A DNA stretch of 64,000 nucleotides from Leptolyngbya sp. FACHB-321 (GTDB lineage Bacteria > Cyanobacteriota > Cyanobacteriia > Leptolyngbyales > Leptolyngbyaceae): assembly GCF_014695975.1 (NCBI RefSeq), contig NZ_JACJPI010000045.1, positions 1 through 64,000 on the forward strand, in the 5' to 3' direction. The notes under the pieces are model-generated. The model saw only the letters and a program-made list of their open reading frames with translations, was not told the DNA's origin and ran no database searches. Position numbers and translations under genes: made by a program. Shown piece after piece: positions 42,590 through 57,722 of this stretch (position 1 is the stretch's first letter; each line of letters opens with the position of its first letter).

Positions 42590-45469
42590 CTACGTTGCTG
42601 TGCGATTAACCAACGCTAAAACAGCTTGCGCGATCGCGGCAGGATCGATCGGTTTCGCAAGGTGCATTTGAAAGCCACTGGTTAAGGCTTGCTGGCGATC
42701 GTCGTCCGTCGCATATGCCGTCAGCGCCAGTGCTGGCAAAAAGGTACCCTGTGCCGCGTCTAGTGACCTGACTTTGCGGATGAACGTGTAGCCGTCTTCA
42801 TCAGGCATCCCAATATCACTCACCAGTGCATCGGGTTTCCAGCTTGCTGGGGCAGCATCCAATGGTTGAGTGAGCAGACTTAAGGCTTCTGCTGCCGACG
42901 CTGCTACGGTCACGATCGCGCCATAGTGTGACATGGCTGCTTGTAAAAAATCTCGGGTATCCGGTTCGTCATCCACTACAAGGATGTGTAGTCCTGAGAG
43001 TAAGTCTAACGAGTCGCTGCCCGATGCCGCCCTGGGCAGAGCAAGACCGGAGTTCTTAGCCTGCGGTGTCGGTTGGGCTGAAGAAGGCACAGCGTGATCG
43101 CTGCTGGAAGGAGTTCCACCATCATTTCCGCTGTCTATGGCTGGGCTGTCTAGTCGTGCTTGGGGGCTGACCGTTTCCGTCGCTACATTCATCAAGGGCA
43201 AGGTAATCATAAATTTGGCTCCCTGTCCCAGACCCAAACTATCGGCATGTACGGTGCCGCCATGCAGCTCTACCAGGTGCCGGACGATCGCTAATCCCAG
43301 TCCTAACCCTCCTTCTGCCCGTGTTGATGATGAATCTGCCTGCCGAAAGCGATCGAACACGAAGGGAAGAAACGCCTCGCTGATACCTTTACCTGTATCT
43401 GTGACGCTAATGTGGGCATGGGAAAGGTGAGGCGTGGATCTTGCAGCCTGTAGTTTTACATCCACACGCCCACCCTCAGGTGTAAATTTAATGGCGTTAG
43501 CAAGCAGGTTCCAGACTGCCTGCTGCAAGCGATCCGGATCACCCAGCACCATTAACGGCATAGTCTCTAGTGGGGCATCTTGCAACCATGTCACAGTAAT
43601 CGACTTTGCAACGGCAGCCGGACGCATTGTGTCGATCGCGGCTGTTACGACCGTCGCCAGATCAACGGGTTGCGGTTGCAGGCGCAGTCTGCCCTGCGTA
43701 ATGGTTGAAACGTCCAGAATATCGTTGATGAGCTGGTTTTGTAACCGGGCGTTGCGTTCGATCGTTTCTAAGGTGCGTGCGGTGGTGACTGGGTCAAACT
43801 GGCGTGTCCGCAGCAACCGTGCCCAGCCCAGAATTGAGTTGAGCGGTGTACGCAACTCATGCGAAAGGACAGCGAGGAACTCATCTTTCATCCGGTTTGC
43901 CTGAGCAAGTTCTTCCGTTTGGGTACGGAGGGTTTGCTCTAACTGCTTGCGCTCAGTCAGGTCGAGAATGAAGGCAATCGTCTGCTGTTTCGCCTCGCCC
44001 AAAAGCCCAAAACCTATAAGAACAGGCACCCGGCTACCATCTTTGCGGATGTACTCTTTTTCGTAAGGAACGCAGTGTTCTCCTGCTTGTACCGTCAAAA
44101 TGCTTTGCTCATCCAGAGGTAAATATTCGGCTGGAGTTATCTCAGTCCAGCGGAGCTTGCCTGTACACAGATCGTCACGCGAATACCCAACCATGCGAAG
44201 AAATTCATCATTGGCTTCGTTAATATCTCCGTTAATTTGACCAAAAAGAATGCCGATGACATTCGCTTCGACCAGACTGTTTAGCCGTTCCTGGCTCAGT
44301 TTTAGCGCTACTTCTGCCTGCTTACGGGCGCTCAAATCAGCCACGATCGACAGAACGCAATCTTCTTCCGCCGTCAACCCTCGCAGCACTGCCGTCCAGA
44401 TGCCCACATAAATGAAAGCGCCATCTTTACGCTGGCGGTACGTTTCCATGCCATCTAGCAGCGTGCCGTTAAGAGTAGCAGCAATGTTCGCGGCGAATTC
44501 TGCTTGTTTCTCCTCTGGCACCGTAGGCATCACATGATTGATCGTCTCGTTTGCCCGCCAGCCAAAAATTTGCTCGGCGGCTGGGTTCCATCGTTTCACA
44601 ATGCCCTGACGATCGAGTACTGTAATGGCGACTGGCGATGCCTGAATCAACGCTTGAAGTTCCTGGTTGGTTTCTTGCAGCGATCGCTCTACCTGCTTGC
44701 GTTCTGTAATATCAATACCGGTGCTAATGACATGGCTAACGGCACCCCACTCATCTAGCAAGACATTGCTCGACCAGGTAATTAAACGCCGCCTGCCGTC
44801 TCTGGCAAGCCAGTAGTTCTCATACTCACTGGGTACAGCATTGACGCATAGATTTCGGAAGACCTGCTTCACGGGTTCGATATCTTCTACCAGCAAAAAC
44901 AGATCCCAAACGTATTTGCCTCGCACTTCTGCAAAGGTATAGCCTGTGAGCTGTTCACATGCCCGGTTGAACTGAATAATCCTGCCCCAATGATCGAGCA
45001 CAACGATAAAGCTACCCGCTGTACTGACGATCGCCGTAATCAAATCTCGCTCATGCCGCAGCGCTCTCACCAATTCCCGTCGCGTTGAACTAAGTGAAAC
45101 CAACAACAGTGAGGTCAGTACAAAGATGCCTAATCTCACCAGGTCACCCGGAGCGCTAACTCTCAAGACGTAGATTGGCGGCAAGAAAAAGTAGGTCGCT
45201 GCCAACGCTGCGATCGCAGTAGCACAGAGTCCGGCACCCAACCCGCCATACCAGGCACTCACCATGACAGCCGCAAAAAATACTAAGAATGGTGAGCTAC
45301 CTATAGGCATCCAGGAGCCTAACCCTAGCATTAGCACCAGCGCCAATAGAACACAAAAAAGGGCGACACCATACCGTAGCCACCGGGGGCGTTCTGGCTT
45401 AAGCGTCGGTTGCGTTACTAAGGGCGCGAGTGGTGGTGGAGAGGGAGCGTGAGACTGACGGGACAGCAA
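42590..45469 (-). CDS. Membrane PAS-rich hybrid sensor histidine kinase
   Basis: A 959-residue hybrid kinase. An N-terminal DUF4118-type set of four membrane helices (about residues 30-125) is followed by three PAS/PAC units (about 135-260, 265-390 and 395-515). A HisKA domain follows (FLAVLSHELRTPLNSILGWARLL, His near 545), then a HATPase (NLLANAIKF, GGLGLGLAI, about 640-755), a Pro/Ser-rich linker and a C-terminal receiver (about 830-955) with ILVVDDEPDTR and the phospho-Asp in LVSDIGMPDEDGY. The middle PAS units could sense redox state or a small ligand, but no heme or flavin residues can be claimed. The missing DNA-binding output suggests a separate partner. Confidence 0.93.
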   Translation of the reverse strand: MLSRQSHAPSPPPLAPLVTQPTLKPERPRWLRYGVALFCVLLALVLMLGLGSWMPIGSSPFLVFFAAVMVSAWYGGLGAGLCATAIAALAATYFFLPPIYVLRVSAPGDLVRLGIFVLTSLLLVSLSSTRRELVRALRHERDLITAIVSTAGSFIVVLDHWGRIIQFNRACEQLTGYTFAEVRGKYVWDLFLLVEDIEPVKQVFRNLCVNAVPSEYENYWLARDGRRRLITWSSNVLLDEWGAVSHVISTGIDITERKQVERSLQETNQELQALIQASPVAITVLDRQGIVKRWNPAAEQIFGWRANETINHVMPTVPEEKQAEFAANIAATLNGTLLDGMETYRQRKDGAFIYVGIWTAVLRGLTAEEDCVLSIVADLSARKQAEVALKLSQERLNSLVEANVIGILFGQINGDINEANDEFLRMVGYSRDDLCTGKLRWTEITPAEYLPLDEQSILTVQAGEHCVPYEKEYIRKDGSRVPVLIGFGLLGEAKQQTIAFILDLTERKQLEQTLRTQTEELAQANRMKDEFLAVLSHELRTPLNSILGWARLLRTRQFDPVTTARTLETIERNARLQNQLINDILDVSTITQGRLRLQPQPVDLATVVTAAIDTMRPAAVAKSITVTWLQDAPLETMPLMVLGDPDRLQQAVWNLLANAIKFTPEGGRVDVKLQAARSTPHLSHAHISVTDTGKGISEAFLPFVFDRFRQADSSSTRAEGGLGLGLAIVRHLVELHGGTVHADSLGLGQGAKFMITLPLMNVATETVSPQARLDSPAIDSGNDGGTPSSSDHAVPSSAQPTPQAKNSGLALPRAASGSDSLDLLSGLHILVVDDEPDTRDFLQAAMSHYGAIVTVAASAAEALSLLTQPLDAAPASWKPDALVSDIGMPDEDGYTFIRKVRSLDAAQGTFLPALALTAYATDDDRQQALTSGFQMHLAKPIDPAAIAQAVLALVNRTAT

Positions 45470-56694: not shown

Positions 56695-56710
56695 TGTGAT
56701 CAAAATCACT
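56695..56710 (+). promoter_or_regulatory. CRP-like operator, copy A
   Basis: TGTGATCAAAATCACT fits TGTGA-N6-TCACA, the consensus of CRP and of cyanobacterial SyCRP1, with one mismatch. Its left end lies 71 bases before the conserved core of small RNA A. Copy B has the same distance. The centre is near -62 to -64 from the inferred start, as for class I activation. Confidence 0.6.
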
Positions 56711-56765
56711 CACACGAATGATCTCGATCGCGTTAACTACCTAGCTCTGAAGACATACTCTAAAG

Positions 56766-56842
56766 GACTCAACTTTAGCCGAGTCATCAACAGGGAACAC
56801 ACGACTGACCGACGGTCTCTTTCGAGGGCTGTCGGTTTTTTT
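56766..56842 (+). ncRNA. Candidate small RNA, copy A
   Basis: No protein frame fits here. A 48-nt core (56766-56813) is identical in copy B, 164 bases away. It begins with a GACTC/GAGTC hairpin (10-nt loop) and has a single-stranded middle containing CAACAGGGAACACACGACTG. It ends in a Rho-independent hairpin (ACCGAC at 56808-56813 with GTCGGT at 56831-56836, an inner stem with a bulge, then seven T). A -10-like CATACT at 56754-56759 ends seven bases before the core; a conserved TGATCTCGATCGC is at 56719-56731 and a CRP-like site at 56695-56710. The transcript is inferred to be about 77 nt. It could be a known cyanobacterial small RNA type; no similarity to Yfr1 is visible. Confidence 0.65.
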
Positions 56843-56858
56843 GTACGGTACTTTATTG

Positions 56859-56874
56859 TGTGACGAAGATCACG
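56859..56874 (+). promoter_or_regulatory. CRP-like operator, copy B
   Basis: TGTGACGAAGATCACG again fits TGTGA-N6-TCACA with one mismatch. The six spacer bases differ from copy A, but both half-sites and the 71-base distance to the core are kept, which argues for selection on the site. Confidence 0.6.
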
Positions 56875-56929
56875 CCAATCACTGATCTCGATCGCCTCTG
56901 CTGCAAGGTTAGAAGAAGATACTTTAAGA

Positions 56930-57005
56930 GACTCAACTTTAGCCGAGTCATCAACAGGGAACACACGACTGACCGACAGGTTTCTTACGAAGGCTGTCGG
57001 TTTTT
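56930..57005 (+). ncRNA. Candidate small RNA, copy B
   Basis: Second copy of the unit, with a 48-nt core (56930-56977) identical to copy A and a terminator hairpin that extends further (ACCGACAG at 56972-56979 with CTGTCGGT at 56994-57001, then TTTTT). Inside the terminator a C-G pair of copy A is replaced by a T-A pair, a compensatory change that supports pairing in RNA. A GATACT at -10 and the TGATCTCGATCGC element (56883-56895) occur at the same distances as in copy A. About 76 nt long. No coding sequence follows before the convergent gene at 57120. Confidence 0.65.
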
Positions 57006-57119: not shown

Positions 57120-57722
57120 CTATCGCATTGCACCCATCGTTTCCTTCCACGATAACTCTTTGCAGAGAATATTCAGCGCTCGCTGCTCCTCTCCCTTAAA
57201 GAGGTGGCTGTCGATCAGCTCAAGCAATACCTGTCGCGTGAGTTGAGCCGCAAATGTGCCGCCGCAACGTAGTAAATGGCTGTAATAGCAAAACTGAGAT
57301 TGCCCCTCTCGATTGCGATGAAAGCGATGAATCTCATCCTCCGTCATCGTTTCGACAGGCGTGTTGATTGGCACAACTACTCTAGGGATGCCGTGTAAAC
57401 CGTAGGAAATCCCGTTTTCTGCTTCGAGTGTACCGATCAGCACCGTCCATAACAACGTCCGGGTTTCACTGATTAAATCGGGTGCAAACACTGGATCAGG
57501 TTCGCTTGACAGCCGGGGACCCATGTTCAAAAACATTGGGTTGAATAACTGAGTGTTGTAGACAAGTCCGACAGCCCAATGGCGATCGCTGTCATTAAGC
57601 CGCACAAAACAACCAAAGCCATAGTCATCTGGTGTCGGTGAATTGGCTCGACTCCGTTCATCGTCCAATTCCACAATGTAGTCGCAGTGCGAGTTTGATT
57701 TAACAACTTTGCCTAGACGCAT
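57120..57722 (-). CDS. Conserved cyanobacterial protein of unknown function
   Basis: A 200-residue soluble protein. It starts MRLGKVVKSNSHCDYIVELDDERSR, continues with DYGFGCFVRLNDSDRHWAVGLVYNTQLFNPMF and has a helical C-terminal half (FCYYSHLLRCGGTFAAQLTRQVLLELI). I recall this as widespread in cyanobacteria without assigned function. The beta-rich N-terminal half recalls the HAS-barrel found at the start of HerA-like ATPases, but I cannot verify this. It converges with the candidate small RNA pair. Confidence 0.7.
   Translation of the reverse strand: MRLGKVVKSNSHCDYIVELDDERSRANSPTPDDYGFGCFVRLNDSDRHWAVGLVYNTQLFNPMFLNMGPRLSSEPDPVFAPDLISETRTLLWTVLIGTLEAENGISYGLHGIPRVVVPINTPVETMTEDEIHRFHRNREGQSQFCYYSHLLRCGGTFAAQLTRQVLLELIDSHLFKGEEQRALNILCKELSWKETMGAMR

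Follow-up and report, generated by a model that had tools for sequence, protein, structure and literature searches.

Tandem genes of a predicted small RNA preceded by paired CRP-type sites in Leptolyngbya sp. FACHB-321, with relatives across Cyanobacteriia

Two short units lie head-to-tail, with a period of 164 bp, on the forward strand of a 64,000-nucleotide stretch of the Leptolyngbya sp. FACHB-321 genome, which is referred to here as the window. Each contains a predicted small RNA (sRNA) gene, copy 1 at 56766..56842 (~77 nt) and copy 2 at 56930..57005 (~76 nt). The two cores (56766-56813 and 56930-56977) match in all 48 nt at an offset of 164 bases (alignment columns 3-50), exactly as had been claimed from the letters alone. 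As +1 we defined the G of GACTC (56766 and 56930), deduced from the location of the -10 box. The remaining elements named in that sequence-only reading were found in the same order in both units: the 13-mer TGATCTCGATCGC 47 bases 5' of the core (56719-56731 and 56883-56895), a -10-like box at -12 to -7 (CATACT, 56754..56759, and GATACT, 56918..56923, both on the + strand), the core, a hairpin and a terminator with a T-run. The predicted fold of copy 1 comprises a 5' hairpin GACTC/GAGTC (56766..56785), a mostly unpaired segment with CAACAGGGAACACAC as the putative pairing region (56786..56804), and an intrinsic terminator with its T-run (56809..56842). Copy 2 has its own terminator and T-run, and the exchange of a C-G for a T-A pair reported for it is located in the inner stem (alignment columns 56 and 66). 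The upstream neighbour is a glycosyltransferase gene on the same strand as the sRNA genes; downstream, on the opposite strand, lies a gene for a 200-aa protein (57120-57722, -), for which no Pfam or NCBIfam match was obtained.

The exact 36-nt core was detected on 24 contigs of other genomes (two of them from one MAG), all labelled cyanobacterial and many Leptolyngbya or Leptolyngbyaceae. This gave 37 copies, 39 including those of the window, and the 33 distinct ones were used to build covariance model R1. With it, 51 positives were obtained among 386 genomes from across the phylum, including three weak ones from outside the class (f31, with E between 1e-4 and 0.006). The broader model R2 drew on 39 sequences, of which 15 had been in the first set and 24 were new, and used terminator pairs only. 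Using it, the search of cyanobacterial genomes that had been proposed along with the original observation gave matches in 191 of the 388 genomes taken from the class Cyanobacteriia at E <=0.01, in 185 of them at E <1e-5; the other 197 gave none, with filters that miss weak matches. Of the 42 genomes in the family to which the window belongs, 39 were positive, and among the positive families are f18 (genus g28, genomes of 2.1-2.8 Mb) and f7 (~4.6-9.4 Mb).

Tandem units with identical cores might be thought a functionless intergenic repeat or a mobile element, the more so as 40 of the 191 positive genomes hold 2 to 5 R2 matches, not all of them tandem and some far apart or on separate contigs (e.g. 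G513). We find this scarcely credible, since the promoter, core and terminator are conserved as a set, the same neighbours recur in several families, and the window's genome shows no dispersal, a point that had been named beforehand as one that could overturn the sRNA interpretation. When the 321-base region was searched as DNA against the 6.7-Mb assembly, it matched only its own place, which rules out a dispersed repeat for this genome, and model R2 gave just two copies there, both in the window. A third copy, indicated by R1 at G000:C83 (E 0.005), was absent with R2 and is taken as a chance match.

When open reading frames from the fetched loci were clustered, the 200-aa gene turned up close to the RNA at 20 loci, spread over several families; its product is an uncharacterised cyanobacterial protein family. 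A second cluster, from 23 loci, consists mainly of apcD-like genes in convergent orientation to the RNA. The ApcD start motif is present in 19 distinct members, the member at L015 looks CpcA-like by eye, and the best solved-structure matches of the neighbour protein at L044 are ApcD (allophycocyanin alpha-B) chains. Beyond the apcD-like gene there is an RNA methyltransferase-like gene at 15 loci; on the far side, 9 loci have a purL-like gene (both named by eye). In one Leptolyngbya-like group the RNA sits behind a superoxide dismutase gene. Because some neighbours (the apcD-like, 200-aa and purL-like genes) are common to several families, gene order lends support to descent of the RNA gene from one ancestral locus.

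Both copies of the window fold into the GACTC/GAGTC hairpin and the terminator, with z-scores of -2.28 (copy 1) and -3.71 (copy 2). The intrinsic terminator is conserved in its pairing: in 39 sequences, 5 of its 10 pairs show two-sided changes and 95.1% of cells pair. When the partner was slid by -1 as a control, 5 two-sided pairs were obtained too, but the paired cells fell to 48%. Taken over the entire structure, covariation scored higher than in any of 500 shuffles, and 29 of the 500 had at least as many two-sided pairs. The 5' hairpin, described earlier as GACTC/GAGTC, folds as stated in both copies, but its strict conservation did not hold. It is exact in 33 of 33 sequences of the first set, which had been selected by that very core; in the wider set its first and last pairs are broken in 14-15 of 39. 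In the minimum-energy fold of most sequences with a broken hairpin, the 3' half, GAGTCA, pairs instead with TGA and CTC, a 5' partner in shifted position, so a 5' hairpin tends to persist in another register. Such a predicted switch, with the GAGTCA strand fixed, was noticed in L047, L048, L054, L056-L062 and L064-L066 (and L043). The segment GGGAACACA is invariant in alignment A2 (39 sequences).

A small peptide gene or an mRNA leader could also be read into the units, given that open reading frames of the window overlap them and that, when no start codon is demanded, two of the three frames contain no stop over the length of the transcript, one in 20 and the other in 19 of the 39 copies. This is nevertheless very improbable. 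A start codon is missing in 33 of the 39 aligned copies over the stretch that begins two bases 5' of +1 and ends shortly after GGGAACACA, and the core-to-terminator distance differs modulo 3 in 6 of 39; on these grounds peptide coding was rejected. The next gene of the window is, moreover, on the opposite strand. No open reading frame is conserved, and the core is judged non-coding, as had been asserted.

The 13-mer was correctly placed by the sequence-only reading, but it is not the anonymous element it seemed to be there: it belongs to the promoter-proximal member of two CRP-type operators. The proximal sites span 56717..56732 (+, centre -41.5) in copy 1 and 56881..56896 (+) in copy 2, and a second palindrome, unmentioned before, is found 22 bp 5' of each 13-mer: TGTGATCAAAATCACT at 56695..56710 (+, centre -63.5) and TGTGACGAAGATCACG at 56859..56874 (+). 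These distal sites are the only exact occurrences of TGTGAN6TCAC in the window; with one mismatch the motif is not enriched across the whole window (11 vs 14.95 expected). The pattern TGATCNNGATCGC occurs three times in the window against 0.02 expected, and two of these occurrences are the 13-mers. The third, TGATCCGGATCGC, is located at 43529-43541 (-), away from the sRNA genes.

In 39 core-aligned copies two informative blocks precede a -10 box that is informative as well, one TGTGA-N6-TCACA-like and centred at -63.5, the other TGATC-N2-GATCRC, centred at -41.5; both fit the CRP palindrome and their spacing is 22 bp. The spacers between the palindromes and the -10 box have low information content, and the intervening bases, already described as diverged, are not kept across several cyanobacterial families, unlike the promoter elements, core and terminator. 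We scored 85 distinct upstream regions, leaving aside copies with fewer than 320 bases upstream, identical upstreams and copies without GTCAT before the core. The distal 16-mer reached at least 8/10 in 76 of them, compared with 3 of 680 control windows taken from the same sequences. For the proximal site at least 7/10 was reached in 43 of 85 regions versus 33 of 680 controls, and it often has just 5-7/10 of the CRP consensus letters, i.e. it is weak in many copies. The count was repeated on 81 regions, from loci L002-L094 and the window (102 copies, 4 dropped for short flanks, the remaining difference being duplicates), with a distal site of at least 8/10 in 72 and either site at that level in 78.

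Nine of the 85 regions are without a good distal site. Four of these, L046, L049, L050 and L051 (f18, genomes of 2.5-3.3 Mb), have one perfect 10/10 site near -43; the proximal site scores 9/10 in L019 and L093 and only 7/10 in L078 and L067, and the ninth region has a distal score of 7. An altered unit was observed in the middle of a three-unit array at L075 (~1560-1720, contig of L004), which retains the distal-type site, the 3' half of the core and the terminator, with other sequence in place of the proximal site, the -10 box and the 5' hairpin.

The site of SyCRP1/AnCrpA is TGTGAN6TCACA, with a -10 box ~22 bp downstream according to PMC2633013, and the distance from the proximal site to the -10 box in the present promoters matches this geometry. 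Together with the absence of any conserved separate -35 element across the 39 aligned copies, this spacing is as expected of class II activation. The -10 box and both operators are kept in the alignment and in the 85 upstream regions, and at the level of sequence the units carry the combination of TGTGAN6TCACA and -10 box that marks the cyanobacterial CRP-cAMP regulon, which suggests that the sRNA would be activated by CRP-cAMP. The joint conservation of promoter elements, core and terminator, with no open reading frame conserved, makes paralogous sRNA genes, each with its own promoter, the best reading of the two units, as initially put forward.

The genome of the window encodes 12 CRP/FNR-type proteins above the Pfam cut-off. 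As its CRP we counted the SyCRP1-like protein L026 (G000:C80:226912-227610), for which the best NCBIfam model is CRP, at 80 bits and far under the curated cut-off of 266, and which in the PDB matches 4ev0, a Crp-family regulator, at 5.8e-29 and chains of the catabolite activator of E. coli at ~3e-16. Its recognition helix is RETVTR, and RETVxR, which we assume to mark CRP-like proteins, is present in L026 alone among the 12. Another factor of the CRP/FNR type might drive these promoters instead, for example NtcA (assigned to L027 by the curated NCBIfam cut-off), which also accepts GTN10AC. The number of such proteins leaves room for this, and NtcA sites as described in PMC6166021 have GT-N10-AC and the -41.5 spacing in common with those found here. 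We consider it quite unlikely, however, in view of the distal TGTGA/TCACA in 76 of 85 upstream regions, of the helix restricted to L026, and of the NtcA-type GTAN8TAC, which lies within -80 to -1 in only 1 of 81 upstream regions (L053).

The assignment to CRP is consistent with the distribution of the protein. In the genome draw used for the R2 search, relatives of L026 at E <=1e-45 occur in 281 of 388 Cyanobacteriia genomes. With 6 weak RNA matches scored as RNA-negative, 173 genomes have both a strong RNA match and the protein, 12 the RNA only, 108 the protein only and 95 neither, so that the SyCRP1-like protein accompanies 173 of 185 strong RNA matches (Fisher p 2e-20, relatedness of the genomes being ignored). 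The 12 genomes with a strong RNA match and no SyCRP1-like match at E <=1e-45 are G103, G432, G442, G491, G511, G540, G563, G579, G580, G607, G617 and G627; nine of them are less than 90% complete, and G103 is at 99%, G491 and G607 at 96%. Both these 12 genomes and the 108 with the protein but no strong RNA match weigh against the CRP reading.

A scan against Rfam 15, proposed together with the original observation, covered the window and 10 further loci and gave no sRNA family at the gathering score; only two tRNAs in the window, the sole genes found there by ARAGORN, passed it. Membership in Yfr1, Yfr2, Xoo2, Hrs13 or other Rfam families was rejected, all being below the gathering cut-off, with the best scores for Xoo2 (25.6 bits against a cut-off of 45) and Hrs13 (19.4 against 52). 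No cyanobacterial sRNA controlled by CRP-cAMP was found in the open PMC literature among the matches listed, and pieces of the RNA sequence led, among the matches listed and judging by title and start of abstract, to no cyanobacterial work in print. CyaR of enterobacteria is a CRP-activated sRNA; Hfq of cyanobacteria differs. By analogy, the present RNA resembles CyaR in being a short, presumably trans-acting sRNA gene with a CRP-dependent promoter, here predicted, and an intrinsic terminator; unlike CyaR it matches no Rfam family, and CyaR is therefore comparable in working and not a relative by membership.

The sRNAs named in cyanobacteria, NsiR1, NsrR1, PsrR1/SyR1, SyR2, Yfr1 and Yfr2, differ from this one in size, promoter, position or motif. 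The letters TCCGGA, which we take to be those of the DIF1 motif, were found between -55 and -15 in none of 81 upstream regions, which sets NsiR1 apart by its promoter. NsiR1 of Nostoc is similar as an sRNA of ~60 nt in tandem copies, each with a promoter and several identical, but its promoters are of the HetR-dependent DIF1 type upstream of hetF (PMC9045159), whereas here CRP-type sites and other neighbours are present. NsrR1 of Nostoc is likewise a conserved cyanobacterial sRNA under a CRP/FNR-family factor; it is, however, ~110 nt long, has an NtcA site over the -10 box, lies between alr1709 and all1710 and is reported, in the parts of PMC6166021 used here, only from heterocystous and closely related strains. 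The single GTAN8TAC occurrence in L053 means that promoters of this kind are not general in our set. PsrR1/SyR1 and SyR2 of Synechocystis, cyanobacterial sRNAs with start sites of their own, are ~130-140 nt long and located near fabF and apcC (PMC2662882), and their primer sequences have words of at most 7 letters in common with these transcripts. Yfr1 and Yfr2 are widely conserved cyanobacterial sRNAs, Yfr1 with a fully conserved unpaired motif, CACUCCUCACACC (PMC4734099), which shares a word of at most 5 letters with these transcripts; for Yfr2 the oligonucleotides given in PMC2662882 share at most 7-letter words, and no Rfam match was obtained. The family is apparently new and seemingly unnamed, with an unexpected predicted regulator, although, still without a name, it may already be among the 327 sRNAs predicted in Nostoc (PMC4734099).

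The prediction of mRNA targets of the conserved segment, also suggested by the sequence-only reading, gave no signal in our complement searches and leader duplex scans, which were coarse, with one seed from the window's lineage applied to all genomes. Perfect complements of an 11-mer from the core numbered 27 in 12 genomes. Of these, 16 fall in the RNA's own genes; the 11 that remain, compared with 14 for the reversed pattern, indicate no enrichment, comprise no gene recurring by eye, and two of them have no sense open reading frame. A 12-mer with one mismatch gave, in six genomes, 31/38, 12/25, 19/30, 46/37, 66/60 and 17/14 sites for the true and reversed patterns, i.e. totals, the RNA's own sites included, that are below the control in three and above it in three. 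In duplex scans with 40 shuffles per leader, the mean z was 0.04 for crp leaders (18), 0.63 for apcD (19), 0.23 for the 200-aa neighbour (12) and 0.46 for sodB (8), with -1.89 for the best single leader.

That no complementary mRNA sites stood out, while GGGAACACA is invariant in 39 aligned sequences, agrees with a real RNA which titrates an RNA-binding protein through this segment and does not pair with mRNAs. Known protein-titrating RNAs (CsrB-like) carry repeated motifs, whereas each RNA here has a single one, and the searches which returned no mRNA sites were of limited resolution; we therefore regard titration as unlikely. Pairing with mRNAs, probably through AUYAAYAGGGAACACAC, is by analogy preferred.

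We thus favour, with a probability of roughly 0.78, the interpretation of the two units as tandem genes of a ~77-nt sRNA family, activated by CRP-cAMP via two sites and probably pairing with mRNAs in trans. In the proposed mechanism a SyCRP1-like protein would bind the two sites arranged in tandem, their centres near -63.5 and -41.5, where the proximal site would take the place of the -35 element, as in class II activation and not repression, and the distal dimer would sit two helical turns further upstream on the same face of DNA. RNA polymerase would then start near 56766 (or 56930) and end at the hairpin and T-run, releasing an RNA composed of a weak 5' hairpin, the mostly single-stranded segment and the terminator. 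This single-stranded segment would most likely pair with several mRNAs and in that way relay the cAMP signal post-transcriptionally, and the tandem copies may raise the dosage.

The functions described for cyanobacterial CRP in PMC2633013 are pili, motility and nitrogen genes. In the parts of PMC4734099 used here only Yfr1, Yfr2 and ncl0160 are named as widely conserved across cyanobacterial lineages, although the map of that paper contains 151 predictions that have 10 or more homologues, and the presence of this family in about half of the class genomes (191/388) may be set beside those three. More tentatively, and with somewhat less than even confidence, we propose that the RNA predates the division of Cyanobacteriia into its main lineages, is largely confined to genomes that keep CRP, and forms the RNA arm of cAMP signalling, which would carry the signal to many mRNAs via a core unchanged between distant families. 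A single RNA that can be deleted, with its core delimited and its activator predicted, would open the wider role of cAMP in cyanobacteria to direct testing.
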